From the NCBI RefSeq assembly GCF_016907695.1, contig NZ_JAFBCK010000001.1:558001-622000 (forward strand): a stretch of 64,000 nt of DNA. The letters run 5' to 3'. Within the stretch, counting starts at the first letter, position 1, and each line of letters opens with the position of its first letter. Shown here one piece after another: positions 10,734 through 32,260 of the stretch. The notes beneath the pieces are model-generated. The model worked only from the letters and a program-made list of their open reading frames with translations, searched no databases and had not been told where the DNA came from. The stretch comes from Actinokineospora baliensis (GTDB lineage Bacteria > Actinomycetota > Actinomycetes > Mycobacteriales > Pseudonocardiaceae). The translations under genes were made by a program, and so were the position numbers.

Positions 10734-11507
10734 GACCTAGCCTTCCGCCTTCGGGGAGTCGGGCCACACCACCAGCTCGCGGGGGACGAGCTCGTTCGGT
10801 GTCGGACACCGGGCGGGGGACCCGGTTGAGCAGGCATCCGAGCCGGATTCCTACCCCGTCCTGTTCGTGACCAGACCGTGACAACGGACCCGGGGACAGT
10901 AACGGGGAGGCAGCGCCGCAGGCAACAGTGCTCACCCAGATCTCACCGGACACCATACGACCAGAACGCGGCACCCAGCGGCTACTACGCAAAGTTAACC
11001 CGAAGTCACACCTATAGTGTGAGCTGGGTCTCCCATCAATCGTCCATCCGGGTGGCAACCGAATTACCCCCGAGTTCGTCCCGGGCGGGCGCGAAGGTCA
11101 CGACCCGGACACTGGACCCCTCGGAGCCCTCTGCTCGATGGGGCCGACTTGGCTTGCGTGGGGGCTCCGAGTCGCGAGCCGTCCCGCCCAACCCGACGAC
11201 CGCCCCCAGGAAGCCGCCCGCCCAATGCTCGATGGGGCGGACTTGGTTTGTGTGGGGTGGCGGTGCCCGTAGCGTTGTGCGCGGACAGGGCCATGCTTTT
11301 CGGCCCCAGCTTTGCGGTCCTGCCACGGGTGGCGCAGGGGCCCCGCGCAAACCAAGTTCGCCCCATCGAGCACACCCGACCACGACGGGTCCGGGTCGCG
11401 AGCCCGCCCCATCGAGCCTGCCCACGCCACCACGATCCAGCGCAATGCCGAAGGCGAGCCGACGACCCGACGGCGCCCCCAGCACCCGCTTGCTAGCGTT
11501 GCCTGCG
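10734..11507. other. 774-bp intergenic region holding palindromic element copy A and partial copies
   Basis: No convincing gene. The left part (10734-11020) ends in an AT-rich patch with TCACA-cctatag-TGTGA (11007-11023) that includes TATAGT, a good -10 hexamer for the rightward direction, but no matching -35 is clear. From 11098 to 11475 the region is a mosaic of one complete palindromic element (11226-11372), a left-half element at 11132-11180, a right-half element at 11389-11416, and the shoulder sequence also found beside the other two copies (11434-11475). Confidence 0.7.
11226..11372 (-). repeat. 148-bp palindromic repeat, copy A (147 bp)
   Basis: Imperfect palindrome beginning TGCTCGATGGGGCGGACTTG and ending with the inverse complement, CAAGTTCGCCCCATCGAGCA. 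About 32 bases at each end are inverted copies of one another. Read on the minus strand, the middle contains CCGTGGCAGGACCGCA and GGGGCCGAAAAGCATGGCCC, shared with copies B and C. It codes for nothing and carries no transposase. Size, inverted ends and intergenic position are those of a MITE-like or REP-like element. Confidence 0.85.
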
Positions 11508-13181
11508 ATGACTTCGCGGATCACCACCCCGTCCCCCGCTGACTCGCCCGCCGACGACAGAGCCGGGGCTCGGGTTGGGTGGGCCCAGAGTCCGGTCCAA
11601 CTGCGGCTCGCCCTCGGCCTCGCAGCTCTCGGCGCTTTCGCCCAGATCGCGGGCATCGCCATCGGGCTTGTCGACCACGGGCCGCCGCCCGGTTTCTCCT
11701 CTTTTCCCCTGCTGCTCCTGCTCGCCGCGCTCCCCCCTGCCGTGGCGATGGGGCTCGTGGCGGGCAAGCGGCCCGTCGTGGGCGCGGGTGTCCTGGTCGG
11801 GGCCGCCCTCCTCGGGCCTGGGCGGCTGCTGGGCGATCTCCAGTTCCTGGTCGACCCCCTGGTGGTGTCCCGGCCGGAGATTATGGTTCCGACCAGCCTG
11901 GCTCCGCTGCACGCCGGTGCGGGCCTGTGGCTGCTGCTCGCCGGCCACCTCCTCGCGATCACCGCGGGTGTCTTGGCCGCCAACCGGGCTGGAGCGCCCT
12001 ACGGGACTCCTTATGCCGCTGAGGTGCACGACGAGGTCAAGCAGCGGTCGCCGGTGGGGTTGGTGGCGGCGGTCGTGGCCGCGTTCGGGTTGCAGTTGGC
12101 ACCGTTCTATTCGGGGAATGCGTTCCTGCTCGCCGAGGGGCTGATCGACAGCCCGTGGCTGGGGCGGTTCGCGCTGCTGGTCGCCGGGATCGGGGTCGTC
12201 GGCGCGGCGTTGGTGGGGACGCGCGGCGCTGCGGTCGGGGTGGTTCTCGGCGTGGCGGCGATCGCGGTTCCGCAGGTCGCGGCCGGGTTGTGGGTGGGGC
12301 TGCTCGAAGCGGCCCCCGGGCCTTGCGTGGCTCTGCTCGGGGTCGCGGGGCTGGCGGTGTCCGTGTGGGTGACGACCCGGGACGAGCAGGGGACCGATCC
12401 GGTGGCTGCGGTGCACCGGATCGCGGGCGTGCTCGGGGTCCTGTCCGGACTGTCGGGTATCGCCGCCGCGACCACCACCGTTCTGGCTGTCGACGGCGTC
12501 GAGCAGGAGACCTTCTCCAACCGGCTGTTCCTCCCGGCCGGGATCCTGGTGGCCGCGCTCGCCATACCCCTTCTGATCCCCAGGGTCGCGGCACCGGTGC
12601 GGCCCGCCTTCGCCGCCGCCCTCGCCTCGATCGCACTGGCCGGTACGTCCACTTTGGACGCGGTGGTGACCGCGACCGGCGTCGGCGCCCCCATCAGCAC
12701 CGGCGCGGCCGTCTGGTTCACCGCGGCAGCCGTGGTGTTCGCGGGCGCGGCGACGATCACCGTGCTGTTCGCGGGCAACGCCGAGCGCGGCGAACCGCAG
12801 GACCGGCCGCTCGACCTCGCGCTGGTCGCCCCGCTGGCCGTGGCCGGGCTGCTGGCGGTCGGCGCTTTCGGCCTGCCCGTCGGCAAGGCCCGCGGGCTGG
12901 TGCCCCCGGGGATCTGGACCGAGTTCCGGCTCGCCTCCCTCGGCCTGTTGCTCGCCGTGATCACCGTCGTCGTGGCGGTGGCTCTGACGCCCGCGTCACG
13001 GCCGCACCGGGCGGGCGCGCTGCTGCTCGGCTGCGCGGGCCTGGTCGGGGTCCGCGCCATGGAGTACCCGCTGACCTCGGCCCGCGCGATCGGCTCGGTG
13101 CCCGGCCCCGGCCTGTGGCTGTCGTTGGCCTGCGCGGCCGCCCTGGTGGTGGCAGCGCTGATGGTGCTGAGCCGCCGGTGA
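11508..13181 (+). CDS. Polytopic membrane protein, function unknown
   Basis: 557 residues from ATG 11508 (MTSRITTPSPADSPADDRAG). About 12-13 hydrophobic segments separated by short loops, rich in Ala, Gly, Val and Leu; the first span is LRLALGLAALGAFAQIAGIA at about residue 30. The reading frame is open far upstream, but that stretch is the intergenic repeat region and has no protein character. The stop overlaps the start of the small gene at 13178, so the two are translationally coupled. No transporter signature is recognised. It is absent from the M. tuberculosis version of this gene order as I know it. Confidence 0.82.
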   Translation: MTSRITTPSPADSPADDRAGARVGWAQSPVQLRLALGLAALGAFAQIAGIAIGLVDHGPPPGFSSFPLLLLLAALPPAVAMGLVAGKRPVVGAGVLVGAALLGPGRLLGDLQFLVDPLVVSRPEIMVPTSLAPLHAGAGLWLLLAGHLLAITAGVLAANRAGAPYGTPYAAEVHDEVKQRSPVGLVAAVVAAFGLQLAPFYSGNAFLLAEGLIDSPWLGRFALLVAGIGVVGAALVGTRGAAVGVVLGVAAIAVPQVAAGLWVGLLEAAPGPCVALLGVAGLAVSVWVTTRDEQGTDPVAAVHRIAGVLGVLSGLSGIAAATTTVLAVDGVEQETFSNRLFLPAGILVAALAIPLLIPRVAAPVRPAFAAALASIALAGTSTLDAVVTATGVGAPISTGAAVWFTAAAVVFAGAATITVLFAGNAERGEPQDRPLDLALVAPLAVAGLLAVGAFGLPVGKARGLVPPGIWTEFRLASLGLLLAVITVVVAVALTPASRPHRAGALLLGCAGLVGVRAMEYPLTSARAIGSVPGPGLWLSLACAAALVVAALMVLSRR

Positions 13182-13435
13182 GGGTGGTGCTGGTCAGCCA
13201 GGACACCGCGGTGGCCGCGGCGCTGCGCGACCTGGGGGTCGAGGTCGTCTACCTGGCGGCGGCGACCCCTGAGGCGCTGGTCAGCACGGCCATGCAGGAG
13301 GACGCCGATGCCGTGGCCGCGCCGGGCGCTCTAGGGGCGATCACCGCGCTGTTGGCCGACAATGGCGCCACCGACATAGCCGTGGTCGGCGTGGACTCGA
13401 TCGCCGCCTGGGTCGTCGCCACGGCCGGTGAGTGA
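13178..13435 (+). CDS. Small cobalamin-binding-domain-like protein
   Basis: 85 residues starting at a GTG that overlaps the preceding stop (GTGA). The sequence (RVVLVSQDTAVAAALRDLGV, then EVVYLAAATPEALVSTAMQE and ADAVAAPG) has the alternating beta-strand/helix pattern and phrasing of the B12-binding Rossmann-like domain at the C-terminus of methylmalonyl-CoA mutase. The B12-coordinating DxHxxG is missing: the place where it should stand reads SQDTAV. It is therefore more likely a structural relative than a cobalamin binder. Coupling to the membrane protein upstream suggests a joint role. Confidence 0.7.
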   Translation: MRVVLVSQDTAVAAALRDLGVEVVYLAAATPEALVSTAMQEDADAVAAPGALGAITALLADNGATDIAVVGVDSIAAWVVATAGE

Positions 13436-13442
13436 GCTCACC
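13427..13442. promoter_or_regulatory. Possible Crp/GlxR-type operator upstream of sucC
   Basis: GGTGAGTGAGCTCACC has the arms GTGA-N6-TCAC typical of Crp/GlxR-family sites, which often control TCA-cycle genes in actinobacteria. It overlaps the stop of the preceding small gene and lies about 146 bases before the sucC start. Confidence 0.35.
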
Positions 13443-13474
13443 ACCGGTCGTGACGGACCTCACCGGGTGCGAAG

Positions 13475-13503
13475 TGTCAAGCCCCATCCCACGTCGCTAG
13501 GGT
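13475..13503 (+). promoter_or_regulatory. Candidate sucCD promoter
   Basis: TGTCAA (13475-13480), 17 bases, TAGGGT (13498-13503). The spacing is ideal and the -10 fits the actinobacterial TANNNT rule; the -35 is only a partial match. It lies about 85 bases before the sucC GTG. Confidence 0.35.
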
Positions 13504-13587
13504 TCCCGTGTCGTCAGACAGCGCGACCTCACCCAAGCCTGTCGTCCCACAGCAGCACGTCGACACCGTAAGTCAGGAGACTGTCGA

Positions 13588-14757
13588 GTGGACCTGTACG
13601 AGTACCAGGCGAAGGATCTCTTCGCCGCCCACGGGGTCCCGGTCCTGCCGGGCGACGTGGCAAGCACCCCCGAGGAAGCCCACGCGATCGCGCAGGGGCT
13701 CGGGCAGACCGTGGTCATCAAGGCCCAGGTGAAGACCGGCGGCCGCGGCAAGGCGGGCGGCGTGAAGCTCGCCGACGACGCCGACGGCGCCAAGGAGAAG
13801 GCCGAGGCGATCCTCGGCCTCGACATCAAGGGCCACATCACCCGCAAGGTGCTGGTGACCGTCGCCTCCGACATCGCCGAGGAGTACTACTTCTCCTTCC
13901 TGCTCGACCGCGCCAACCGGACCTTCCTGGCGATGGCCTCGGCCGAGGGCGGCATGGAGATCGAGCAGCTGGCCGTGGAGCGCCCCGACGCGCTGGCCAA
14001 GGTGCCGGTCGACGCGATCAAGGGCGTCGACCTGGCGACCGCGCGCGACATCGCGACCCAGGCCAGGATCCCGGCCGAGGTGCTGGAGCAGGCCGCCGAG
14101 GTGATCGTCAAGCTGTGGGAGACCTTCGTCAGCGAGGACGCCACCCTCGTCGAGGTCAACCCGCTGGTGCGCGACCCGCAGGACAAGGTCATCGCCCTCG
14201 ACGGCAAGGTGACCCTGGACGAGAACGCCGCCTTCCGCCAGCCCGGCCACGCCGCGCTGGTCGACAAGGACGCCGAGGACCCGCTGGAGGCCGCGGCCAA
14301 GGCCAAGGACCTCAACTACGTCAAGCTCGACGGCCAGGTCGGCATCATCGGCAACGGCGCGGGCCTGGTCATGTCCACCCTGGACGTCGTCGCCTACGCC
14401 GGTGAGAAGCACAAGGGCGTCAAGCCCGCGAACTTCCTCGACATCGGTGGCGGCGCCTCGGCCGAGGTGATGGCCAACGGCCTGCACATCATCCTGGGCG
14501 ACCCGGACGTGAAGTCCGTCTTCGTCAACGTCTTCGGCGGCATCACCTCCTGCGACGCGGTCGCCAACGGCATCGTCGCGGCGCTGCAGATCCTGGGCGA
14601 CGAGGCCACCAAGCCGCTGGTCGTCCGCCTGGACGGCAACAACGTCGACGAGGGTCGGCGGATTCTGGCCGAGGCCAACCACCCGCTGGTGACGGTCGTC
14701 GACACTATGGACAACGCGGCTGACAAGGCCGCCGAGCTCGCGGCTGCGGGGGTCTGA
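13588..14757 (+). CDS. sucC: Succinyl-CoA ligase (ADP/GDP-forming), beta subunit
   Basis: 389 residues, the usual length. The beta subunit of succinyl-CoA synthetase binds the nucleotide and, with SucD, converts succinyl-CoA, phosphate and NDP to succinate, CoA and NTP in the TCA cycle. It begins with the family hallmark [19 protein letters not shown], and carries [16 protein letters not shown] of the ATP-grasp domain, EINPL-like VEVNPLVRD, and the C-terminal [16 protein letters not shown] that contacts the alpha subunit. The GTG at 13588 follows AGGAGA at 8 bases. sucD begins 6 bases after its stop. Confidence 0.97.
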
Positions 14758-14762
14758 CCCAG

Positions 14763-15653
14763 ATGGCTATCTTCCTGACCGAGAACAGCAAGGTCATCGT
14801 CCAGGGCATCACCGGCTCCGAGGGCACCAAGCACACCGCGCGGATGCTCAAGTCGGGCACGAACATCGTCGGCGGGGTGAACCCGCGCAAGGCGGGCACC
14901 AAGGTCGAGATCGAGGGCCAGTCGCTGCCGGTGTTCGCCACCGTCGCCGAGGCCATCGCCGAGACCGGCGCGGACGTGTCGGTCATCTTCGTGCCGCCGA
15001 AGTTCGCCAAGGACGCCGTCATCGAGGCGATCGACGCCGAGATCGGCCTCGCGGTCGTCATCACCGAGGGCATCCCGGTGCACGACTCCGCCTACTTCTG
15101 GGCGCACGCGGTCGCCACCGGGCACAAGACCCGGATCATCGGCCCGAACTGCCCCGGCCTGATCTCCCCCGGGAAGTCCAACGCGGGCATCATCCCGGCC
15201 GACATCACCGGCCCCGGCAAGATCGGCCTGGTGTCCAAGTCGGGCACGCTGACCTACCAGATGATGTACGAGCTGCGCGACATCGGCTTCTCGTCCGCGG
15301 TCGGCATCGGCGGTGACCCGATCATCGGCACCACGCACATCGACGCGCTCGCCGCGTTCGAGGCCGACCCCGAGACCGAGCTGATCGTGATGATCGGCGA
15401 GATCGGCGGCGACGCCGAGGAGCGGGCCGCGGCCTACATCAAGGAGAACGTGACCAAGCCGGTCGTCGGCTACGTCGCGGGCTTCACCGCCCCCGAGGGC
15501 AAGACGATGGGCCACGCGGGCGCGATCGTGTCCGGCTCGGCCGGTACCGCGCAGGCGAAGAAGGAGGCCCTCGAGGCCGCAGGCGTCAAGGTCGGCAAGA
15601 CGCCGTCGGAGACCGCCGCGCTGGCGCGGGAGCTGTTCACCGCGCGCGGCTAG
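14763..15653 (+). CDS. sucD: Succinyl-CoA ligase, alpha subunit
   Basis: 296 residues. The alpha subunit binds CoA and carries the phosphohistidine. Visible are the CoA-binding Rossmann segment [39 protein letters not shown] and the catalytic histidine in [11 protein letters not shown] (His about 251). It forms the heterodimer with the product of sucC immediately upstream; the operon ends at a strong hairpin 18 bases after the stop. Confidence 0.97.
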
Positions 15654-15670
15654 GGAGTGTTGAGCACTAC

Positions 15671-15705
15671 CGTGGGGCCGGGCGCTGGTAGCGTCCGGCC
15701 CCACG
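15671..15705 (+). terminator. sucCD terminator hairpin
   Basis: CGTGGGGCCGG pairs with CCGGCCCCACG (11 bp, 13-base loop), 18 bases after the sucD stop. G+C-rich and without a U-run. Confidence 0.7.
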
Positions 15706-15814
15706 CTCGTTCATCCGCCCGGGAACCGGACACGGTCGGGTGACGTCCAACGGGCAGGGATGGGCTAGCGTTTCGTTGGCTCTGATGTTTCTTCGTCGCT
15801 GAGGAGAGCACGCG

Positions 15815-16486
15815 ATGACCTACCCAGGTGCGCCGGGCGGATACCCGGGGCCGGGACAACCGCAGCAGCCACCGCAGCCCCAGCCGGGGTTCGGCCCGCC
15901 GCCGGTGGCCTCGGGCAGCAGGTTCACCCTGGCGCAGACGCTGCACTTGGTCGTGCTCGGTCTCGGCGCGCTGAACCTGTTCCTCGGGTTCGCCCCGCTC
16001 GCGGCGTCGATCAGCTTCTACGAGGGCGGCTTCGGCTGGGTGCCCGGTCTGCTGTTCGCCGGTGGCCTGCTCGCGCTGCCCGCGGTGCTCGCCGGTGACA
16101 AGAAGGTCGGCGTGCACTCGGTCGCCCTGGTGCTCGGCGCGACGCTGGCGTTCCTGTTCAGCGTGTTCGCCAGCGACGGCGAGCTCAAGGCTGGCGGCAT
16201 CATGGTGCTGATCTTCGGCTTGCTGCAGTCCGGTGGCGCCATCGCCGCGTTCCTGTTCGAGGCGGGCATCCTCAAGCCGCCCGCGCCCGCGCAGCACCAC
16301 GGCCACTTCGGACAGCCGGGCGGCTACAACCCGCCGTCCGGGCAGTTCCAGCAGCCCTACGGCCAGCCGCCGGTGCAGCAGCCGCAGCCGGGCGCGCAGA
16401 CCACCTTCGCCCCGCAGCAGGGCCAGTTCGGCCAGCCCCCGCACGCCCCCGGCACGCCGCCGGGTGGGTACCCGCAGCAGGGCTGA
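15815..16486 (+). CDS. DUF5336-type membrane protein with Pro/Gln-rich tail (Rv0954-like)
   Basis: 223 residues. A Pro/Gly/Gln-rich cytoplasmic start (MTYPGAPGGYPGPGQPQQPP) is followed by four hydrophobic segments between about residues 40 and 155, then a second Gln/Pro/Gly-rich tail ending in HAPGTPPGGYPQQG. This matches the mycobacterial Rv0954 family, which is implicated in cell division/envelope function there. A good ribosome-binding site (GAGGAGA) precedes the ATG. The disordered tails on both sides of the membrane core suggest partner or phase-type interactions, as in other divisome accessory proteins. Confidence 0.87.
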   Translation: MTYPGAPGGYPGPGQPQQPPQPQPGFGPPPVASGSRFTLAQTLHLVVLGLGALNLFLGFAPLAASISFYEGGFGWVPGLLFAGGLLALPAVLAGDKKVGVHSVALVLGATLAFLFSVFASDGELKAGGIMVLIFGLLQSGGAIAAFLFEAGILKPPAPAQHHGHFGQPGGYNPPSGQFQQPYGQPPVQQPQPGAQTTFAPQQGQFGQPPHAPGTPPGGYPQQG

Positions 16487-16837
16487 CGCGCTTTCTCGCC
16501 GGAACGGGCGGGGTCACCGGGAAACCGGAGACCCCGCCCGTTCCGCGTTTCCGGGGTGGTGGCGGTGATGAGGCTGATCAACCTCGGCGCAGGTGGCTGC
16601 CTGCCGGGGGCAGCAGTGCCAGATCCGGGGCGGCTGCCCGAACACAGGAATGGCAGCCGGATTCGGCTGACCGCCACCGCCGCTGGGCGGGTGCCGTTGG
16701 CGATGTCCGCACCTCGCCGTCGTCGGGCCCGAGGCGGTCGGGGTCCGTCGCCGACCTCGTTTCCGGGCGTTCACCGGATTGGTGGGTGGCGGCGTGGCTG
16801 AACCGATCGGCGGAGCGCGGGTGTCAGAGTGGGGGCC
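16487..16837. other. Intergenic region (351 bp)
   Basis: Contains the strong terminator at 16501-16544. The remaining 290 bases show no gene, repeat or clear promoter that I can support. Confidence 0.6.
16501..16544 (+). terminator. Strong terminator hairpin
   Basis: GGAACGGGCGGGGTC pairs perfectly with GACCCCGCCCGTTCC (15 bp) around a 14-base loop, 15 bases after the DUF5336 gene. Confidence 0.8.
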
Positions 16838-18160
16838 ATGCCGGACACCGACCTGTTGGAGGCCGAGGAGACCGACCGGGTCGTGATCACCCGGTCGCTG
16901 CGCGGGCGGGTGCTCGCTGTCGCCGCTGTTGGGCCGGTGCTCACCGGGTACGCGGCTGTGGCGGCGGTGTTGGCGCTGGTCACGGCGATCGCGGCGCGGG
17001 CGTTGTTCACCACGCCCGGTGTTCTGGCCGCGGCGGTGCCGGGCTGGCTAGCGGCTTACCAGGTGCCGGTGCGGATCGAGGGCCATGAACTCGGTGCTCT
17101 GCCCCTGTTGCCGACGCTGCTGGTGTTGGTGCTGGTGTGGCGGACGGCGGCTGCGGCAGCGGAACGGTTGGACGTGGAGACGCCGCGGGAGGCTGGGCAG
17201 GTGGTGGGTGCCGTTGTCGGCGCGCATGCCGTGGTGGGCCTAACGCTGGCGTTGTTGTGTTCGGGTGGAACGGTCACGATCGACCCCTTGGCGGGGTTGT
17301 ACTACCCGGCTCTCCTGTCCGGTATCGCCGCCGTAGCCGGGGTGATTCCGCGCGCTGGGGTATTGCACGTGTTGTCCGAGCGGATGGACGCGGTAGCGCT
17401 AAGAGGCCTGCGAGCCGGTCTGCTCGCGGTGGCGGCACTGCTTGCCACGGGCGCGGTTGTGCTGACCCTGGCGTTGGCCCTGTCGTTCTCGACCGTGAAG
17501 GGCCTCTTCGCCATAGAGGGCCTCGGCGGCGGTGTCGGCATGTTGTTGCTGTCGCTGGGATATCTGCCTAACGCGGTGATCGCGGCCACGGGGTTCGCAG
17601 CGGGCCCAGGCTTCTCCTTGGGGACGGTTGTGGTGTCCCCTATGGACTTCTCCGGTGGCGTAGTGCCGCCGCTGCCGCTTCTAGGCGCCTTGCCGGAGCA
17701 TGGTCAACCGTGGTGGTTGGTGCTGTTCGCGTTGCCCGGCGCTGTCGGGACGCTGGTGGGCTGGGTACTGCGCGAGGTCGACGAGTCACCCCGGATGCGG
17801 TTGCGCGCGGTGGCGGTGGCCTCCGTTGTGGTGGCGATGGTGTTCGCGGTGCTGGGTGGGGCGGCGGGCGGAGCGCTGGGCGGTGGCCCCTTCAACCCGT
17901 TGGACCTGCGGGCGGCGTGGTTGTCGTTGGCGCTGGTGGCCTGGGTCGCGGTCCCCGGCGGCCTGATCGCCTGGACTGCGGGACCGCAGCCCGAACCGGA
18001 ACCAGAGCCTGATCCCGAGCCGGACGACGAGACCGACGAGACCGAAGAAGACCCCGACGAGGTCGAGGAACCAGAAGACCCGGTGGACGAGGCGGTCGCG
18101 GACGAGGCCGAGCCGGAGGACGAGCACGAGGGCGGGGACACAGCCAAGCCCGGGTCCTGA
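16838..18160 (+). CDS. DUF6350-type polytopic membrane protein (Rv0955-like)
   Basis: 440 residues from ATG 16838 (a GTG at 16829 is possible). About ten hydrophobic segments fill residues 25-385. The C-terminus is a highly acidic cytoplasmic tail of about 55 residues built of Glu/Asp/Pro ([20 protein letters not shown]), which is not part of the membrane core. The position directly before purN matches M. tuberculosis Rv0955. Function unknown. Confidence 0.87.
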
Positions 18161-18223
18161 GCAAGATCGACTTCCCACGGCCTAGTCTGGGCGCGTCCTG
18201 GTCCGGCCTTCGCAGGGAGCACG

Positions 18224-18853
18224 TTGAGCGCTCAGTACCCGCCCGCTTCCCCAGCCAGGGTCGTCGTCCTGGTCTCCGGGTCCGGCACCCTGCTGCAGGC
18301 CCTGCTCGACGCGGCCGCGTCGCCGGACTACCCGGCCGAGGTGGTGGCCGTCGGCGCCGACCGGACCGGGATCGAGGGCCTGGCCAGGGCCGAACGCGCG
18401 GGGGTGCCGACCTTCTCGGTGCGCCTGCGCGACCACGCCGACCGCGCGGCCTGGGACGCGGCGCTGACCGAGGCGGTCGCGGCGCACCGGCCGGACCTGG
18501 TGGTCTCGGCCGGGTTCATGAAGATCGTCGGCGCCGGGTTCGTGGCCCGCTTCGGCGGCCGGACGATCAACACGCACCCCGCGCTGCTGCCCGCCTTCCC
18601 CGGCGCGCACCCGGTGCGCGACGCCCTCGAGCACGGCGTCCTGGTCACCGGGGCCACCGTGCACCTGGTCGACTCGGGCGTGGACTCCGGGCCGATCCTG
18701 GGCCAGGCGCCGGTGCTGGTCGAGCCGGGCGACGACGAGGCGGGGCTGCACGAGCGCGTCAAGGTGGTGGAGCGGCGGCTGCTGGTGGACGTGGTCGCCG
18801 GGATGGCCGCCGAGGGCTACACCGTGGACGGACGAAAGGTGAGCATCCCGTGA
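18224..18853 (+). CDS. purN: Phosphoribosylglycinamide formyltransferase
   Basis: 209 residues. Transfers a formyl group from 10-formyltetrahydrofolate to GAR in step 3 of purine synthesis. The N-terminal phosphate loop is [13 protein letters not shown], the substrate/folate segment is SAGFMKIVG, the catalytic histidine sits in [16 protein letters not shown] and the conserved aspartate in [12 protein letters not shown]. The usual Asn of SGxGTN is Leu, as in the mycobacterial enzyme. Start is TTG behind AGGGAG. Its stop overlaps the purH start (GTGA), so the two are translationally coupled. Confidence 0.96.
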
Positions 18854-20427
18854 GCGTTACCGAGGCGGCCCAGCGGCGGCGGATCCGCCGCGCGCTGATC
18901 GGCGTGTCGGACAAGAGCGGCCTGCTGGAGCTGGCGACCGGCCTGCACGCGGCCGGGGTGGAGATCGTGTCCACCGGCGGCACCGCGAAGACCATCGCCG
19001 ACGCCGGGGTCCCGGTGACGCCGGTGGAGGAGGTGACCGGGTTCCCCGAGTCGCTGGGCGGCCGGGTCAAGACGCTGCACCCGAGGGTGCACGCCGGGCT
19101 GCTGGCCGACATGCGCGACCCGGCGCACGTGGCGCAGCTCGACCAGCTGGAGATCGCCCCGTTCGACCTGCTGGTGGTGAACCTGTACCCGTTCGTCAAG
19201 ACGGTGTCCTCGGGTGCCTCGCCGGAGGAGTGCGTCGAGCAGATCGATATCGGCGGTCCGGCGATGGTGCGCGCGGCGGCGAAGAACCACGCCAGCGTGG
19301 CCGTTGTCGTCGACCCCGCGAGGTACTCGTGGCTGTTGGAGCAGGTCGCGGCTGGCGGCTTCACCTTGGCCGACAGGCAGTCCTTGGCCGCTGCGGCCTA
19401 TAGGCACACCGCGTCCTACGACGTCGCTGTGGCGTCGTGGATCGGCAACGTCCTCGCCCCCGATGACGAGGGGTCGGGCTTCCCGGGCTGGGTCGGCGCC
19501 ACCTGGGAGCGGAAGAACGTCTTGCGCTACGGCGAGAACCCGCACCAGAGCGCGGCTCTATACGTGCAAGGGGACGGGTCGTCCGGGCTGGCCACTGCGA
19601 CCCAGCTGCACGGCAAAGACATGTCGTACAACAACTACGTCGACGCGGACGCCGCTTGGCGGGCCGCGCACGACCACGCGTCGGCGTGCGTGGCGATCAT
19701 CAAACACGCCAACCCGTGCGGTATCGCGGTGTCCGACGTGGACATCGCGCAGGCGCACCGCAACGCGCACGCCTGCGACCCGACCAGCGCGTTCGGCGGC
19801 GTGATCGCGGCCAACCGCGAGGTCAGCGTGGCCATGGCCGAGCAGGTGGCGGAGATCTTCACCGAGGTCGTCGTCGCCCCCGCCTACGCCGACGGCGCGG
19901 TGGAGGTGCTGACCCGCAAGAAGAACATCCGGATCCTGCTCGCCGAGCCGCCGCGCCGGTCGGGTGCCGAGCTGCGGCCGGTGTCGGGCGGGCTGCTCCT
20001 GCAGACCATCGACACCCTCGACGCCGAGGGCGACGACCCGGCCAAGTGGACGCTGGCGACCGGTGCGGCGGTGGACGACGCCACCCTCGCCGACCTGGCC
20101 TTCGCCTGGCGGGCCTGCCGCGCGGTGAAGTCGAACGCGATCCTGATCGCCAAGGACGGCGCCACCGTCGGCGCGGGCATGGGGCAGGTCAACCGGGTGG
20201 ACGCCGCTCGGCTCGCGGTGTCGCGCGCCGGGGACCGCACGGTCGGCGCGGTCGCCGCGTCGGACGCGTTCTTCCCGTTCCCGGACGGTCTTGAGGTCCT
20301 CGTGGCGGCCGGGGTGCGCGCGATCGTGCAGCCCGGTGGTTCGGTTCGCGACGCCGAGGTCATCGCGGCCGCCGAGGCAGCCGGGGTGTCGCTGTACCTG
20401 ACCGGTACCCGGCACTTCGCGCACTGA
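18850..20427 (+). CDS. purH: Bifunctional AICAR formyltransferase / IMP cyclohydrolase
   Basis: 525 residues, full length. Performs the last two steps of IMP synthesis. The N-terminal IMP cyclohydrolase domain (about 1-200) begins [17 protein letters not shown] and includes [19 protein letters not shown] and [12 protein letters not shown]; the AICAR formyltransferase domain carries the KHANPCGIA motif and ends with [11 protein letters not shown]. The GTG start lies inside the purN stop. A convergent terminator follows. Confidence 0.97.
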
Positions 20428-20431
20428 CGTG

Positions 20432-20458
20432 GTGGGGGCGAGGGTTCCTCGCCCCCAC
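20432..20458. terminator. Bidirectional terminator between purH and the thioesterase
   Basis: GTGGGGGCGAGG pairs with CCTCGCCCCCAC (12 bp, 3-base loop) and is followed by TTT in the purH direction. It serves both convergent genes. Confidence 0.8.
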
Positions 20459-20460
20459 TT

Positions 20461-21339: not shown

Positions 21340-21346
21340 TCCGATG

Positions 21347-23900: not shown

Positions 23901-24259
23901 CGGCGGCATCGGCTCGCCTGCGGCATTGCACTGGATCCCTGGGTGGTCCGGTGTGCTCGATGGGGCGAACTTGTTTTGCGCGGGGCCCCTGCACCAGCCG
24001 TGGCAGGACCGCACAAGCCGGGGCCGAAAAGCATGGCCCTGCAGCGAGGCAAGGCTACGACTGCCGCCACCCCACACAAAACAAGTCCGCCCCATCGAGC
24101 AGTTGGGTGGGCGGCTTCCGAGTGTCCAGTGGCCGGGCTGGCGGGGCTGGCTCGGTGGGTTGGGTTTGGGTGGGCTGACTCGGTGGGCTGGTTTGGCACG
24201 CCAGCTTCCGGGGAGCGGTGGTCAACCAGGTGGGCTGGCTCGGAGGGTGGGTTGGGGAA
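23901..24259. other. Intergenic region between imuB and dnaE2 with palindromic copy B
   Basis: 359 bp. Shoulder sequence 23905-23938, palindromic element 23954-24101, downstream shoulder CTTCCGAGTGTCCAGTGG (24115-24132), then a G-rich tract with repeated GGGTGGGCTG/GGCTCGGTGGG words. No LexA box (no TTCGAA or GAACN4GTTC) is present, so dnaE2 has no SOS operator of its own here. Confidence 0.7.
23954..24101 (+). repeat. 148-bp palindromic repeat, copy B
   Basis: Starts TGCTCGATGGGGCGAACTTG and ends CAAGTCCGCCCCATCGAGCA, inverted ends of about 31 bases. The middle reads GCCGTGGCAGGACCGCACAA, then GGGGCCGAAAAGCATGGCCC, then TGCAGCGAGGCAAGGCTACG. It is very close to copy C over the whole 148 bases and close to copy A read in reverse. 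Confidence 0.88.
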
Positions 24260-27200
24260 ATGGGGTGGAGCAACCCGCCGGTGCGGTGGTCGGAGTTGGA
24301 GCGGATCCTGTCGGGGCGGGCGGCCGCTGTGGGGGATGGTGGGGACAGTCCGGCGTGGACGCACCATCGGGAGAGGTATGTTTCGCCTTCGGGGGCCCGG
24401 GTGGTCGCCGATCAGGGGGATGGGGATGGGCGGGTTCCGTACGCGGAGCTGCACTGCCACAGCAACTTCAGCTTCCTCGACGGGGCCAGTCATCCGGAGG
24501 AGTTGGCTGAGGCGGCTTCGTTGTTGGGGCTCGACGCCGTTGCGATCACTGATCATGACGGGATGTACGGGGTGGTCAGGTTCGCGGAGGCGGCCAAGGA
24601 GGTCGGGGTTCGGACTGTCTTCGGCACCGAGCTCAGTCTGGGGTTGACTGCGCCGCAGAACGGGGTGGCTGATCCTGAGGGGGAGCACCTCCTCTTACTG
24701 GCTGCCGGGCAAGAGGGGTATCACCGGTTGTGCCGGGTTCTCACCTCTGGGCATCTTGAGGGCAAGGAGAAGGGGAAGCCTCTATACAACTTGCAGGAGG
24801 TGTTCGAAGAGACGCGGGAGCACTGTGTGGTGCTGACTGGGTGCCGCAAGGGGGCGGTTCGCAAGGCTTTGGCTGAGGGTGGGCCTGCCGCCGGGTTTGA
24901 GCAGTTGAGGTTGTTGACGGTCTCTTACGGTAAGGACCGCGTGTTTGTGGAGCTGGTCGACCACGGGTACCCGGAGGACTCCAAGCGCAACGACCTGCTG
25001 AACAAGATGGCAGCCGAGTTGGGGCTGCCGACCGTGGCCACCAATGCTGTGCACTACGCGAATCCGAGTCGAGGCCGGTTGGCGGCGGCTATGGCGGCGG
25101 TGCGAGCGCGGCGGAGTCTGGACGAACTAGAGGGGTGGTTGCCGCCCGCAGCTGTGGCGCATCTTCGTAGTGGGAAGGAGATGGCGGAGCGGTTCGAGCG
25201 GTACCCGGGGGCGGTGCAGCGGGCCGCGGTGCTGGGGGTCGCCCTGTCGTTCGACCTGGAGGTGGTGGCGCCGGAGTTGCCGCCGTTCACCGTGCCCGAT
25301 GGGCACACCGAGGCGAGCTACCTGCGTGAGCTGGTCCGGGAGGGGGCGGCGACGAGGTACGGGGCGGGCGCGGACAAGGCGCACGCGCAGATCGAGCACG
25401 AGCTGACCGTGATCGAGGAACTCGGCTTCCCCGGGTACTTCCTGATCGTCTGGGACATCGTGCGGTTCTGCAAGGACAACGGGATCTACTGCCAGGGCCG
25501 GGGTTCGGCGGCGAACTCGGCGGTCTGCTACGCGCTGGGCATCACCAACGTCGACGCGGTGCGGTGGGAGCTGCTGTTCGAGCGGTTCCTGGCCCCGGCG
25601 CGGGACGGGCCGCCGGACATCGACCTGGACATCGAGTCGGACCGGCGGGAGGAGGCCATCCAGTACGTCTACACCAAGCACGGCAGGCGGCACGCGGCGC
25701 AGGTGGCGAACGTGATCACCTACCGGGCCAAGTCGACCGTGCGGGACATGGCGCGGGCGCTGGGGTACTCGCCGGGGCAGCAGGACGCGTGGAGCAAGCA
25801 GATCGACCGGTGGGGGCCGCTGACCAGCACCGTCGGCGACAACCACCTCGACGTGCCGGTCGCGGTGCTCGAGCTGGCCGGGCAACTGGAGGACTTCCCA
25901 CGGCACCTGGGCATCCACTCCGGCGGCATGGTCATCTGCGACCGGCCGGTCAGCGAGGTGTGCCCGGTGGAGCCCGCGCGGATGGCCGACCGGACCGTGC
26001 TGCAGTGGGACAAGGACGACTGCGCCGCCGTCGGGCTGGTGAAGTTCGACCTGCTCGGGCTCGGGATGCTCTCCGCGCTGCGGTACATGGTGGAACTGGT
26101 GGCCGAGCACCACAGCGCGGCCGTCGAACTCGGCGAGCTCAACCTGGCCGACGCCGGGGTGTACGACATGCTGTGCGCGGCCGATTCGGTGGGTGTGTTC
26201 CAAGTGGAGAGTCGGGCGCAGATGGCGACGTTGCCCCGGTTGCAGCCGCGCGAGTTCTACGACCTGGTGGTGGAGGTCGCGCTGATCCGGCCGGGGCCGA
26301 TCCAGGGCGGGTCGGTGCACCCGTACATCCGGCGCAAGAACGGCACCGAGAAGATCACCTACGACCACCCGCTGCTGGAGAAGGCCCTGCACAAGACCAA
26401 GGGCGTCCCGCTGTTCCAGGAACAGCTCATGCAGATGGCGGTCGACATCGCCGACTTCACCCCCGCCGAGGCCGACGAGCTGCGCCGGGCCATGGGCGCC
26501 AAGCGCTCTACCCGGCGCATGGAGCGGCTGCGGGAGCGCTTCTACGCGGGTGCGGCCACGCACGGGATCGACGAGGAACTGGCGGGCCGCATCTACGCGA
26601 AGCTGCTGGCGTTCGCGAACTTCGGTTTCCCGGAGAGCCACGCTCTTAGCTTCGCGTACCTGGTCTTCGCGAGCGCGTGGTTCAAGCTCTATTACCCGGA
26701 AGCCTTCTGCGCGGCGCTCTTGCGCGCCCAGCCCATGGGCTTCTATTCACCGCAGTCCCTAGTAGCCGACGCCCGCCGCCACGGCGTAACCGTTCTAGGG
26801 CCAGACATCAACGCCAGCCTCTCTTACCCCACCCTCGAACCAGCAGGCGAACGCCCCGCCATCCGTCTTGGCCTAAGCACGATCCGCAACATCGGCGAGA
26901 AACTGGCCACCCGCATCATCGCCGCCCGCGGCGAAACCCCCTTCGCGGACATGACCGACCTCGCCCGCCGAGTCGAACTGACCCGCCCCCAGATAGAGGC
27001 CCTGGCCACCGCGGGTGCTTTCGGCAGCTTCACCCCACACCGGCGAGAAGCCCTGTGGACCGCGGGAGCCGTTGTCTCCGAAGGCAAAGGCCACCTCCCC
27101 GGCACGGTCGTCGGCGCCACCGCCCCCACCCTCCCCGGCATGGACACCCTCGACCAGGCCATAGCCGACGTCTGGGCCACCGGCATCTCCCCGGACAGCT

Positions 27201-27553
27201 TCCCCACCCAGTTCATCCGCCCCTACCTCAACCGGATCGGCGCCCTCCCGGTGTCCGGCCTGTCCTCGGTGGAGAACGGAACCCGAATCCTCCTCGGCGG
27301 CGCGGTGACCCACCGGCAACGCCCCCAGACCGCGGGCGGGGTGACCTTCATGAACATCGAAGACGAGACGGGGATGGTGAACGTGGTGTGCTCCCCGGGC
27401 CTGTGGGTGCGCTACCGCCGGATCGCCCGGACCAGCGCGGCGCTGTTGATCCGCGGGATGGTGGAGAAGTCCGAGGGCGTGATCAGCCTCTATGCCGACC
27501 ACATGCAGACCCTGCACATGCGCATAGAGGCCAAATCCCGCGACTTCAGATGA
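24260..27553 (+). CDS. dnaE2: Error-prone DNA polymerase III alpha subunit homologue
   Basis: 1,097 residues from ATG 24260 (MGWSNPPVRWSELERIL, the usual start of actinobacterial DnaE2). C-family polymerase that performs SOS translesion synthesis with ImuA' and ImuB. The PHP domain starts YAELHCHSNFSFLDGASHPE; the palm carries GRGSAANSAVCYALGIT and PDIDLDIESDRREE (catalytic Asp residues); later RPGPIQGGSVHPYIRRKNG and FGFPESHALSFAYLVFASAW; an OB fold follows near the C-terminus (FMNIEDETGMVNVV). Its stop overlaps the convergent phosphatase stop by 8 bases. Codon choice shifts visibly near 25,200 and again near 26,650. Confidence 0.96.
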   Translation: MGWSNPPVRWSELERILSGRAAAVGDGGDSPAWTHHRERYVSPSGARVVADQGDGDGRVPYAELHCHSNFSFLDGASHPEELAEAASLLGLDAVAITDHDGMYGVVRFAEAAKEVGVRTVFGTELSLGLTAPQNGVADPEGEHLLLLAAGQEGYHRLCRVLTSGHLEGKEKGKPLYNLQEVFEETREHCVVLTGCRKGAVRKALAEGGPAAGFEQLRLLTVSYGKDRVFVELVDHGYPEDSKRNDLLNKMAAELGLPTVATNAVHYANPSRGRLAAAMAAVRARRSLDELEGWLPPAAVAHLRSGKEMAERFERYPGAVQRAAVLGVALSFDLEVVAPELPPFTVPDGHTEASYLRELVREGAATRYGAGADKAHAQIEHELTVIEELGFPGYFLIVWDIVRFCKDNGIYCQGRGSAANSAVCYALGITNVDAVRWELLFERFLAPARDGPPDIDLDIESDRREEAIQYVYTKHGRRHAAQVANVITYRAKSTVRDMARALGYSPGQQDAWSKQIDRWGPLTSTVGDNHLDVPVAVLELAGQLEDFPRHLGIHSGGMVICDRPVSEVCPVEPARMADRTVLQWDKDDCAAVGLVKFDLLGLGMLSALRYMVELVAEHHSAAVELGELNLADAGVYDMLCAADSVGVFQVESRAQMATLPRLQPREFYDLVVEVALIRPGPIQGGSVHPYIRRKNGTEKITYDHPLLEKALHKTKGVPLFQEQLMQMAVDIADFTPAEADELRRAMGAKRSTRRMERLRERFYAGAATHGIDEELAGRIYAKLLAFANFGFPESHALSFAYLVFASAWFKLYYPEAFCAALLRAQPMGFYSPQSLVADARRHGVTVLGPDINASLSYPTLEPAGERPAIRLGLSTIRNIGEKLATRIIAARGETPFADMTDLARRVELTRPQIEALATAGAFGSFTPHRREALWTAGAVVSEGKGHLPGTVVGATAPTLPGMDTLDQAIADVWATGISPDSFPTQFIRPYLNRIGALPVSGLSSVENGTRILLGGAVTHRQRPQTAGGVTFMNIEDETGMVNVVCSPGLWVRYRRIARTSAALLIRGMVEKSEGVISLYADHMQTLHMRIEAKSRDFR

Positions 27554-27968
27554 ACTTCTCCACCCAGCGCTTCTGCCACGGGGTCTCCACCGCGCCGGGC
27601 AGGTAGTGCTTCCGCGTCCACGCAACCGCTTCCGCAGGGGCTACCCCGCTCAGGATGGCCAGGCACGACAGCACGGTGCCCGTTCGGCCGATACCGCCAC
27701 CGCAGGCGATTTCCACGACTTCGCCCGAAGCCGCGCGCACATGTGCGTCCTTGATCAGCCGTATGGCTTCGGAGCGGTCGCGCGGGAGCCAGAAGTCCGG
27801 CCAGTCGATCCAGGTGTGGGGCCAGGTGAGGGTGGGTTCGTACCGGCGTAGGCGGGAGCCTCCCAGATAGAGGCCGTAGTCGGGGGCGTCGGTGATGGGG
27901 CCGTTGCGGAGACCCCTGGCTCGGACGCGGGTGCCGTCGGGGAGGTCGACCGGAGTGGGGCTGGTCAT
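27546..27968 (-). CDS. Protein-tyrosine-phosphatase-family protein
   Basis: 140 residues. Cys-based phosphatase signature CX5R(T) appears as IACGGGIGRTGTVLSC (Cys about 92, Arg 98), with the general-acid loop probably in WIDWPDFWLPRD. This is the small actinobacterial dual-specificity/tyrosine phosphatase type, where the usual His before Cys is Ala. Substrate unknown. Its 3' end overlaps the end of dnaE2 by 8 bases. Confidence 0.85.
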   Translation of the reverse strand: MTSPTPVDLPDGTRVRARGLRNGPITDAPDYGLYLGGSRLRRYEPTLTWPHTWIDWPDFWLPRDRSEAIRLIKDAHVRAASGEVVEIACGGGIGRTGTVLSCLAILSGVAPAEAVAWTRKHYLPGAVETPWQKRWVEKFI

Positions 27969-28008
27969 CGGGTACTAGTACCAGCGGGATGACCAGCCCC
28001 ACAAACGC

Positions 28009-29466
28009 CTATAGGTCGATCCCGGACAGGACCATCACCTGTTCCTCGGTGAAGTCGTCCATCGCGGACCGCAGACCCTCGCGCCCGGTCCCAGAGCCCT
28101 TCACGCCGCCGTAAGGCATCTGGTCGGCGCGGTAGGACGGCACGTCGCCGATGACGACGCCGCCGACCTCGAGTTCGGCCGAAGCCTTGAACGCGACCTG
28201 CAGGTCACGGGTGAACACACCCGCCTGCAGCCCGTAGTCGGTCCCGTTGGCGACCTCGAAGGCCTCCTCCAGGGTGTCCACAACGGTCACCACGAGGACC
28301 GGCCCGAAGACCTCCTCGCACGACACCTTCTCCGCGGCCGGGACCCCGCTGAGCACGGTCGGGGCCACGGTCGCGCCGGATCTCGTGCCGCCGGTCAGCA
28401 GGGTCGCCCCGGCCGCCACGGCCTCCGACACCCAGGTCTCGACCCGCTCGGCGTTGCGCTCGTCGATCAGCGGACCGACGTCGACGTTCGGGTCGTGCGG
28501 GTCGCCGGTGTGCAGGGCCTCGACCTCGGCGACCAGGCGGGGGATGAACTCGTCGGCCAGCGAGCGGTGCACGACGACCCGCTGGACGGCGATGCAGGAC
28601 TGGCCCGCCTGGTAGTTGCCGAAGGTGGCGATCCGGCGGGCGGCGAAGTCCAGGTCCGTCCAGTCCGGGCACAGGATCGCCGCGCTGTTGCTGCCCAACT
28701 CCATCACCACGTGCTTGCGCGGCGCGGCGGAGGTGATGCCGTGGCCGACGCCGGTGGAGCCGGTGAACGAGATGACCGGGATCCGGGGGTCCTCGATCAG
28801 CGCCGACATGGCCGAGCCGCGCACCGGCAGCACCGAGAACGACCCGGCTGGCAGGTCCGTCTCGGCCAGGATCTCGCCGAGCAGCAGCGACGACAGCGGG
28901 GTGGCCGACGCGGGCTTGACGATCACCGGGGCGCCGACCGCCAGCGCCGGGGCGACCTTGTGCGCGACCAGGTTCAGCGGGAAGTTGAACGGCGCCACCG
29001 CCAGCACCGGACCGCGCGGGCGGCGGCGGATCAGGCCCAGCCTGCGCTCGCCGTTGGCGTCGGTGTCCAGCCGCTGCAGCTCCCCGATGTGCCTGCGCGC
29101 CTCCTCGGCGGCGAACTTGAACACCGACACCGCCCTGGCCACCTCGATGGTCGACCACTTCAGCGGCTTGCCGTTCTCCGCGGTGATCGTCTCGGCGATC
29201 TCCTCGGTGCGCTCGGCCAGCGTGCGCGAGACGTGCTCCAGCGCGTTCGCCCGCACGTGCGCTGGCACCGAGCGCAGCGGCTTGGCCGCGGCGGCAGCGG
29301 CGGCGATGGCCGCCTCCACGTGCTCCGGGGTGGGCACCGACACCGTCGCCACGTCGGTCCCGTCGTAGGGGTGGCGCACCTCAAGGGTGTCCTCGCTGCT
29401 CTGCGGCCTGCCCGCCACCCAGAACGGGCGCGGCTTGGCCACCACGGCGTCTTGTTCGTCGGTCAT
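28009..29466 (-). CDS. Aldehyde dehydrogenase family protein
   Basis: 485 residues from ATG 29466 (or 488 from GTG 29475). NAD(P)-dependent oxidation of an aldehyde to the acid. Visible are the cofactor region VIVKPASATPLSS and FTGSTGVGHGI, the catalytic glutamate in VMELGSNS, the nucleophilic cysteine in GQSCIAVQR, and EEVFGPVLVV. The phrase PFNFPLNLVAHKVAPALAVG and the C-terminal YGGVKGSGTGREG place it near the lactaldehyde/glyceraldehyde-type dehydrogenases. Substrate not determined. Divergent from guaA. Confidence 0.93.
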   Translation of the reverse strand: MTDEQDAVVAKPRPFWVAGRPQSSEDTLEVRHPYDGTDVATVSVPTPEHVEAAIAAAAAAAKPLRSVPAHVRANALEHVSRTLAERTEEIAETITAENGKPLKWSTIEVARAVSVFKFAAEEARRHIGELQRLDTDANGERRLGLIRRRPRGPVLAVAPFNFPLNLVAHKVAPALAVGAPVIVKPASATPLSSLLLGEILAETDLPAGSFSVLPVRGSAMSALIEDPRIPVISFTGSTGVGHGITSAAPRKHVVMELGSNSAAILCPDWTDLDFAARRIATFGNYQAGQSCIAVQRVVVHRSLADEFIPRLVAEVEALHTGDPHDPNVDVGPLIDERNAERVETWVSEAVAAGATLLTGGTRSGATVAPTVLSGVPAAEKVSCEEVFGPVLVVTVVDTLEEAFEVANGTDYGLQAGVFTRDLQVAFKASAELEVGGVVIGDVPSYRADQMPYGGVKGSGTGREGLRSAMDDFTEEQVMVLSGIDL

Positions 29467-29607
29467 GGGCTCCACGGTAGGCCGCGACCGGGCGTGCGGC
29501 TTGGCCGAGAAGGCCCCGGGTTAGGATGTCGGCGGCTGACCGACGGTGGTGACTAGGGTTCCGCCGCGCCGCACCTGGGCGCGGGTCTGGTTCGAGCGTC
29601 ACGGAAA

Positions 29608-29695
29608 GCCCGCGCGACAGGTGCGCGGGCAGGCATCTCCGGGAGAGAAACCCAGGGAGGGACCGGTCGGCGCACGGTGCTGGACGCCGTGCGCC
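29608..29695 (+). other. Two hairpins in the guaA leader
   Basis: CCCGCGC-gacaggt-GCGCGGG near 29608-29630 and GGCGCACGG-N9-CCGTGCGCC at 29669-29695, separated by a purine-rich stretch (GGGAGAGAAACCCAGGGAGG). They lie 55-145 bases before the guaA start. They could be a structured 5' leader; no known riboswitch consensus is recognised. Confidence 0.3.
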
Positions 29696-29750
29696 GATGG
29701 GGTGTCCCATCCGGTGCTCCGGCTTCCGCGACAACGGAAGGTCATGTGTC

Positions 29751-31310
<1,560 letters not shown>

Positions 31311-31327
31311 GCCAGACGGCATAGCCC

Positions 31328-31903
31328 CAACACCGCTCTTCCACACCCTCGCGCGCGGCACAGCCCTCGTTGCCTTTTCGTAGTTCCTGATCAGGGAGCT
31401 GTGGTCACCAGGCCCGGCATGACAAGCCCCCACTCGAATCCATGATCCGGGGGTGGTGTCACCGGGTCTGGTGGCATCGAGGGACCGCTGAACAGAGACA
31501 TGGCCACCGGCTTGGCGGGTCTCGTCGTGACGTGGGTGCCGGCCATCGATGCCTACATGCCCGGTCGGCGATGCGCCGCTTTGCCGACCTCTACCTGGGC
31601 CGGGCGAAACCGATGCCCCGGGACGCGTTCATCATCGCCGACGCCGCCCGCTCCCTGCCTTGCACCCTGCGCCGGGTCGACGTCCGCGACGGGCGGAGGT
31701 GCTGGTCACCCGTAGCTCCAGCACGAGGATCAAGGGCGAGCATCCAGCCTGGACCGGCACCCGCCAGCTCACACGCGCGTCCTTCTTCGCCGCCTTCGCC
31801 TCGTTGTCCGACTCCACCAGCCGGACCTACTACGCCCCCAAGAGAGCCGAGGGCAAGAACCACAACACCGCTCTTCCGTAGCGCCTCGCGCGCGGCACAG
31901 CCC
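31328..31903 (+). pseudogene. Remnants of an IS110-family transposase
   Basis: In one frame (about 31690-31881) the product FFAAFASLSDSTSRTYYAPK followed by RAEGKNHNTAL matches the C-terminal block of IS110-family transposases (typically ASRxYYxRKRAEGKxHNxAL). The stop falls where the family continues LARRR, and the DNA after the stop (CTCGCGCGCGG) still reads LAR in another frame. The segment CAACACCGCTCTTCC plus CCTCGCGCGCGGCACAGCCC occurs twice, at 31328-31366 and 31863-31903, i.e. two copies of the same transposase 3' end about 535 bases apart. The intervening piece (FADLYLGRAKPMPRDAFIIA, near 31580-31635) is in another frame and is not recognised. Confidence 0.55.
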
Positions 31904-32108
31904 CCACCCTCTCCGGGGGGGGCGGCCCCGGGGCCAGTCTATCGGGGCAGGCGGGGCGGTGGGGGGTTGGCGAAATGCCGTGGATGGCTGGGCGGGTTGT
32001 GGACAACTCGGCGGAAGCGGGCCGGGGTGGTGATCGGGTTCCGGCTTCGCCGTCGGATCTTCGGCTCGTCGCTTCGCGACATTGCGCTGGATCCGCGATT
32101 TGAGTGCA

Positions 32109-32256
32109 GGCTCGATGCGGTGGACCTGTTTTGCGTGGGGCCCCTACGACAGCCGTGGCAGGACCGCAAAAGCCGGGGCCGAAAAGCATGGCCCTGCAGC
32201 GAAGCAAGGCTACGACTGACGTCCCCCCACACAAAACAGGTCCACCCCATCGAGCA
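32109..32256 (+). repeat. 148-bp palindromic repeat, copy C
   Basis: Starts (G)GCTCGATGCGGTGGACCTG and ends CAGGTCCACCCCATCGAGCA. The changes in one arm relative to copy B (ACTTG to ACCTG, CGGAC to TGGAC) are matched in the other arm, i.e. compensatory. The core GGGGCCGAAAAGCATGGCCC is identical to copy B. Confidence 0.88.
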
Positions 32257-32260
32257 GTTG

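Follow-up and report, generated by a model that had tools for sequence, protein, structure and literature searches.

A stretch of 64,000 nucleotides from Actinokineospora baliensis (the window in the following; positions 558,001-622,000 of a one-contig genome of 7.68 Mb) contains three copies of a long imperfect hairpin of about 148 bp, and raises the question of what kind of element this is and how it came to be dispersed. The copies are found at 11226-11372 (copy A), 23954-24101 (copy B) and 32109-32256 (copy C), as the original prediction had reported, and their arms of 31-32 nt, which are 91-94% complementary, agree with the terminal inverted repeats (TIRs) of about 32 bases described there. 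The three copies turned out to understate a far larger family: the arm motif TGCTCGATGGGGC, allowing up to 2 mismatches, matches 14 times in the window versus 3.88 times expected (14 being reached in 0 of 100 shuffles), and the 20-base core GGGGCCGAAAAGCATGGCCC, allowing up to 3 mismatches, has 195 matches genome-wide (99 on the plus and 96 on the minus strand), compared with 3 for a reversed control pattern. At least about 50 full-length copies were recovered by a DNA search in which the best 40 of 205 candidates were scored, and at least 150 by a covariance model. The A. baliensis genome holds about 190 dispersed copies of the 148-letter hairpin, and also contains subfamilies with another interior and mostly arms of its own type.

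The predicted intergenic location was confirmed: a survey of 125 copies, taken from the window plus 60 further A. baliensis stretches, shows only 1 that overlaps a called gene. Genes were called with a purpose-built codon model, and among the gaps of at least 80 bp in these stretches, elements occupy 46 of the 84 convergent gaps, compared with 31 of 248 codirectional and 4 of 165 divergent ones (convergent versus divergent, Fisher p 3e-22). The stretches had been chosen for holding elements, and a few of them overlap, so that some gaps were counted twice; this choice inflates the occupancy, but we see no evident reason why it should create the contrast between the gap types. The copies prefer convergent gene ends and avoid coding sequence and divergent gaps. 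Copy A, unlike most copies, sits in a divergent gap; copy B lies between an imuB-like gene (called end 23793) and the gene of an error-prone DNA polymerase, and copy C between guaA and a reverse-strand gene. In the codirectional gaps of A. baliensis, 19 are occupied in reference sense, 5 in antisense and 7 in mixed orientation, and a general bias relative to the genes was dropped after three relatives had given a ratio of 9:13 (pooled p = 0.18). Among the 150 copies listed, neither half of the genome shows a preference for one strand (34:41 and 40:35). In other species, an apparent stop codon, read by eye, precedes the element by about 14-70 bp in at least 9 of 19 left flanks.

We define the S strand as the one carrying AGGGGCCCC towards its 3' end; it is the plus strand in copy A (the better-folding strand, with GCAGGGGCCCC towards the 3' end) and the minus strand in copies B and C. 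Throughout the genus, the S strand folds into an outer helix P1 of 31-32 bp, followed by GGGG facing an unpaired (GU)AGGGG that precedes CCCC, then by a helix P2 of about 11-14 bp, an often AAGCTT-like linker and a helix P3 with an often CTTTTC-like loop. The folding z values of the three copies range from -7.3 to -9.4, both strands included. The asymmetric (A)GGGG bulge is kept in all 34 copies collected from 13 species, and variants of it occur in other genera, where P1 is shorter than in Actinokineospora. At four loci of these genera (L302, L303, L304 and L306) the bulge reads AGAGG and is accompanied by GGAG/CTCC in place of GGGG/CCCC, which is a compensated change of the bulge motif itself.

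The original prediction had also claimed that changes in one arm are compensated in the other and that this reflects selection on a folded hairpin, and this view is borne out by covariation over 13 species and then over other genera. The structural alignment A5 comprises 23 of 34 representatives from the 13 species, the arms being placed by pairing and P2/P3 taken from single folds; 95.9% of its cells are paired, both sides have changed in 41 of 51 pairs, and its covariation of 0.647 stands against 0.186 +- 0.012 for shuffled alignments (0 of 500 reaching the observed value) and at most 0.118 if the partners are slid by 1-3 columns. The alignment A6 comprises 17 of 29 segmented sequences, 8 of them from other genera (excluding L303, L306, L307, L312 and eight Actinokineospora rows), and shows changes on both sides in 23 of 25 pairs, with a covariation of 0.976 versus 0.220 +- 0.024 after shuffling (again 0 of 500) and at most 0.163 with slid partners. 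Two further alignments, A1 and A2, contain 72 and 52 of 74 collected copies. The turnover of the sequence is uneven: most of the 13 species retain TGCTCGATGGGGTGGA-like letters in the outer ~16 bp of P1, and variation is strong in the middle of P1 as well as in P2 and P3; the genome G006 shares almost no arm-end sequence, and the arm ends in other genera are unrelated to the A. baliensis type. The P1 pairs of the 34 copies, read on the S strand, consist of 1003 Watson-Crick, 55 G.U, 0 A.C and 2 other cells, and because G.U but not A.C mismatches accumulate on this strand, it is a folded single strand, either RNA or single-stranded DNA, that seems to be conserved. After exclusion of 2 copies that lack the motif, the corresponding mismatches within A. 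baliensis amount to 262 G.U and 11 A.C cells, besides 45 others.

Three search models traced the family in Actinokineospora and some other Pseudonocardiaceae. The exact core was retrieved in 79 stretches of genome contigs, all belonging to A. diospyrosa, A. globicatena or A. terrae, in a collection that may leave out the A. baliensis record itself, and the identity between A. baliensis copies and those of three near relatives averages about 86%. Of 61 genomes, model R1 matched 15, and 13 of these, A. baliensis among them, are Actinokineospora, with G010, G012 and G014 negative; a long hairpin in G056 (L153) that fitted R1 was set aside since it lacks AGGGGCCCC. Model R2 detected the element in 30 of 297 Pseudonocardiaceae genomes, of which 15 represent Actinokineospora (G012 being the only negative of its 16) and 15 belong to 7 other genera, these counts being lower bounds as the best 10 candidates per genome were scored. 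Among the folds of 15 loci from other genera, most show the bulge motif, at times in slightly altered form, and L300 is the least typical. Class-wide, model R3 matched 2 of 394 genomes, both Actinokineospora (best 9 candidates per genome scored), and the 148-mer had no match in phage and plasmid records. Rfam yielded no match in the window at gathering score, a single MIR9672 match of 27.3 bits (cut-off 74) for three A. baliensis loci at E values up to 1, and none for six loci of other genera under the same setting.

The original prediction had called for a search of relatives as well as of the genome, and this revealed, besides further copies and covariation, empty gaps in congeners. The gap of copy A is element-free in all three relatives aligned there (G011, G008 and G005), and that of copy C in all 12 relatives compared, with 3 more unaligned across the gap; the gap of copy B holds an element in G015, G011 and G008 (reversed in G008), and G005 has a 36-bp gap without one. 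Among 15 further A. baliensis sites compared with relatives, no locus could be aligned for L220, L231, L244 and L255, and L257 and L269 had only one-sided or partial anchors. No element is present in G005 and G011 at L226, L272, L219 and L259, in G005 at L264, in G015 at L276, and in G015, G005 and G011 at L232; at L268, none was found in G011, and the match in G005 is unclear. Elements do occur in G015 at L226, L272, L264, L268 and L217, and in reversed orientation at L257. One gap lies beyond an IclR-like gene that is oriented divergently to a leuC-like gene, both names having been assigned by eye from the sequence; it contains an element in 8 of 14 congeners, always in the same orientation, and the arms of the three copies compared there (G004, G008 and A. 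baliensis) are of each species' own type. For 12 of 13 shared sites, the A. baliensis copy resembles the average of A. baliensis copies more than it resembles its positional counterpart, whose identity to it lies, on average over the 13 sites, 0.015 below the mean cross-species identity. Counterparts at shared sites match the A. baliensis copy no better than does a copy picked at random from the same relative; genome-wide overwriting of old retained sites and repeated insertion into the same gaps both fit this pattern. As a separate observation, a 3-kb segment of A. baliensis (L259, 10268-13293) is inverted relative to A. diospyrosa (L099), with elements near both ends, as would be expected from recombination between copies.

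The family therefore presents itself as a many-copy, intergenic element with a bias to 3' ends of genes, whose shape is kept by compensatory change and whose copies resemble each other within a genome. That the shape is kept while the sequence changes suggests that the cell or a mobilising enzyme recognises the shape. We consider it about an even chance that the elements form a dispersed, non-autonomous hairpin family of the Pseudonocardiaceae, in which the folded S strand is recognised in trans, insertion takes place at gene ends and old copies are overwritten. In such a scheme, the S strand, as RNA or single-stranded DNA, would be read by a putative protein via the bulge and the helix, new copies would insert in gaps at gene ends, with or beside older repeats, and old ones would be overwritten via gene conversion or re-insertion; this overwriting would give each genome its own arm type. 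The proposal of a non-autonomous mobile element, already contained in the original prediction, thus holds in outline, given the many copies and the gaps that are empty in relatives, but a clean-ended unit was not seen.

Several observations weigh against the scheme of a trans-recognised, gene-end-inserting hairpin. The site shared by 8 of 14 congeners argues for long retention and hence perhaps for a cellular role. The inserts include flanking modules, and neither clean 148-bp ends nor a target duplication were seen, the empty and occupied gaps being too diverged for the junctions to be read. A partner enzyme was likewise not found, in spite of the search for one that the prediction had suggested: the Y1_Tnp profile (PF01797) has no match in the A. 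baliensis genome and matches only G014 and G006 among 16 genus genomes, the reverse transcriptase profile RVT_1 (PF00078) has none in A. baliensis and matches in 3 of the 16, and no pair of arms flanking a gene was noticed among the matches listed, which cover about 1.25 of 7.68 Mb with a permissive pattern. The missing Y1_Tnp match argues against a partner of the RAYT type (REP-associated tyrosine transposase, REP standing for repetitive extragenic palindromic sequences) in A. baliensis, so the notion of a REP-like sequence in the strict sense fails, and the missing RVT_1 match speaks against mobilisation by a reverse transcriptase, be it similar to short interspersed nuclear elements, introns or retrons. 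Truncated retrocopies were rejected as well, since the A. baliensis stretches contain about 134 full-length copies versus only 4 longer fragments and at least 8 short arm-start pieces beside elements, and a clear one-sided pattern is absent. Moreover, the structural alignments favour structure because they were partly placed by pairing, and the recognisable outer ~16 bp of the arms would also be explicable by a transposase binding duplex DNA. Finally, 19 of 21 G.U cells fall on three positions if one representative per species is counted, and outside these positions A. baliensis P1 shows 20 G.U versus 11 A.C (p = 0.15). Support for the strand polarity comes from the comparison of species and is weak inside a single genome.

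In one subclade, the hairpin is joined to another type of signal. In S. coelicolor and M. tuberculosis, TTGTCCACA is the DnaA box of high affinity (PMC4285127). Its density per kb in gaps with elements versus other gaps amounts to 2.02 versus 0.23 in A. diospyrosa, 0.94 versus 0 in A. terrae, 1.41 versus 0.24 in A. globicatena and 0.40 versus 0.20 in A. baliensis; in the same order, it is present in 25 of 36 element gaps versus 4 of 102 others, 11 of 16 versus 0 of 36, 18 of 29 versus 4 of 68, and 20 of 84 versus 17 of 436, with reversed and shuffled 9-mer controls occurring 0-1 times in gaps. The boxes share the orientation of the nearest element in 26 of 28 cases in A. baliensis and 115 of 119 in the relatives, lie to its left in 26 of 28 and 92 of 119, respectively, and often form pairs 19 bp apart. 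A motif TTGTCGG..CGGTAGGCTGTGTAT..GGGGG is also mostly placed left of the element in the same orientation, and in the stretches from the four species all 46 matches of the regular expression TAGGNTGTGTAT fall within element gaps, with none in the remaining gaps or in coding sequence. At A. diospyrosa loci such as L186 and L331, oriented TTGTCCACA boxes are seen together with an TAGGCTGTGTAT motif, mostly 100-500 bp left of elements. Among 45 loci of other species or genera (some representing the same place twice), a single TTGTCCACA was found within 700 bp, and the CGGTAGGCTGTGTAT motif only at two G008 loci. The link between hairpin and DnaA box should therefore be regarded as lineage-specific, and the hairpin as more widespread, and probably older, than the composite. 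It appears improbable that these features define a class of fold-recognised elements, in which a one-strand hairpin keeps an invariant GGGG bulge while its helix letters are replaced genome-wide, and that one Actinokineospora subclade has joined it with oriented DnaA boxes and TAGGCTGTGTAT into many DnaA-binding and possibly transcribed units at gene ends, tying scattered sites to replication control.

Much of the evidence might also be accommodated by a cellular structured RNA or 3'-end element, such as a terminator, a stability determinant or a protein-binding site, with copies multiplying only as passengers of duplication or gene conversion. This would account for the strong bias to convergent gene ends, the uniform orientation at the site that is occupied in 8 of 14 congeners, the apparent stop codons shortly before the element and the wobble pairs confined to one strand; we nevertheless consider it rather doubtful, as the gaps of many copies are empty in relatives, G012 and 267 of the 297 family genomes gave no match at the sensitivity of R2, the orientation in codirectional gaps is inconsistent, and no Rfam family corresponds to it. 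A classical miniature inverted-repeat transposable element (MITE), whose arms would be TIRs bound as duplex DNA by a DDE transposase acting in trans, is an unlikely explanation, even if arms of 31-32 bp that are nearly perfect, the better conservation of their outer part in most of the 13 species, the excess of full-length copies over fragments and the own-type arms on subfamilies with other interiors all point in this direction. At one locus from another genus (L302), a gene of a DDE-superfamily transposase (1701-2894) lies 64 bp from the element, as the only transposase among 10 neighbouring proteins examined at 6 loci from other genera. A plain TIR-bounded MITE is disfavoured because modules outside the arms recur in register, the arm middles differ between species and the cross-species mismatches are wobbles of one strand; in addition, the arm ends are unrelated in G006 and other genera, no arm pair around a gene was noticed among the matches listed, and the interior bulge is invariant, although the interior of a MITE need not be.

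A purely mutational upkeep of the palindrome, in which one arm is rewritten after the other by replicative template switching and covariation arises without selection on folding, would likewise yield near-perfect arms and coordinated double changes. It appears highly improbable, since the asymmetric bulge, which arm copying should erase, survives in 34 copies from 13 species, G.U cells prevail over A.C cells by 55 to 0 across species, and P2 and P3 co-vary too. The hairpin might, on the other hand, be the structural part of a DnaA-binding, replication-related composite, serving DnaA titration or as an origin-like unit, as suggested by the enrichment of TTGTCCACA in the element gaps of four species in matching orientation. 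This is quite unlikely in view of the merely twofold enrichment per kb in A. baliensis, where element gaps are also longer, the lineage-specific occurrence with one box near 45 loci elsewhere, and the lack of a strand bias by genome half among the 150 copies listed.

The prediction of a family was correct, but the unit proves to be larger than 148 bp, since flanking modules recur in a fixed register. Copy B has a left module (CGGCTCGCCTGCGGCATTGC..GGTG) at 23910-23953 and a right module (..TTCCGAGTGTCCAGTGG) at 24102-24132, and copy C a type II left module (GATCCGCGATTTGAGTGCA) at 32090-32108 and a right module (GTTGGCACCAGCGACTCCGAGTGTCCAGTGG) at 32257-32287, all on the plus strand. Module L is found on the same strand about 40 bp left of an element in 56 of 84 module matches, and the type II left module directly left of one in 14 of 17; the copy at L232 (15781) has neither flanking module. 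Copy A adjoins an isolated arm remnant at 11132-11163 (plus strand) and a second, short arm-start remnant at 11406-11418 (minus strand). The statement that no transposase adjoins the copies is not strictly true, as IS110-like DNA lies about 0.4 kb left of copy C: the sequence at approximately 31551-31691 has matches in 7 Streptomyces plasmid records, where the DNA bears the annotation of an IS110-family transposase. In the stretch 31440-31900, which lies between copy C and guaA, stops interrupt two plus-strand frames and leave the third open, and we judge this stretch to be probably a remnant. A different repeat, in which a GCCCCC..GGGGGC hairpin follows a TAGACTGG-like box, is present in reversed orientation at about 31880-31950 of the window and at L330 and L332 of relatives. 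Farther away, the open reading frame 51515-56659 (1714 amino acids) contains a long coding repeat region at 53000-55350 with many direct repeats of 38-201 nt.

The hairpin family was found neither in Rfam 15 nor in the open-licence literature searched on actinobacterial repeats, stem-loop families, MITEs, RAYT or DnaA boxes, and belongs in kind with the dispersed hairpins similar to the enterobacterial repetitive intergenic consensus (ERIC). ERIC elements are not known to have an enzyme of their own, and the element described here, at 148 bp, is too short for a transposase gene; it is also multi-copy, intergenic and a long hairpin. The likeness is drawn at the level of class; the host family differs, and a conserved asymmetric bulge is combined with the turnover of many stem letters between congeners. 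ERIC itself, as described in PMC2267715, is an interspersed intergenic sequence of 127 bp forming a single long hairpin, and is thus of similar length. With REP sequences, their composites (bacterial interspersed mosaic elements) and the associated RAYT (TnpA-REP), the family shares palindromic, intergenic and clustered copies and strand-polar folding. REP palindromes are only about 20-40 nt long and carry a GTAG/GGAG-type tetranucleotide at the foot, whereas the hairpins of 148 bp end TGCTCGAT-like or otherwise, hold their GTAGGGG internally and occur in A. baliensis without a Y1_Tnp match (2 of 16 in the genus). Short length, inverted arms, a high copy number and unoccupied gaps in relatives recall MITEs, from which the family differs by its invariant interior bulge, the modules outside the arms and the lack of an autonomous relative noticed among the matches listed (about 1.25 Mb). 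The attC sites of integrons also conserve structure over sequence and fold on one strand, but no attC end motifs were noticed by eye, and no search for an integron integrase was made.

In the related genomes, nature offers one fold in about a dozen versions, and the recognised features, i.e. the bulge, the helix lengths and the arm ends, can be read from this series. The spread and uniformity of ERIC-like hairpins without an enzyme of their own thereby become testable in A. diospyrosa, A. globicatena and A. terrae, and the association with DnaA boxes is directly testable by chromatin immunoprecipitation.

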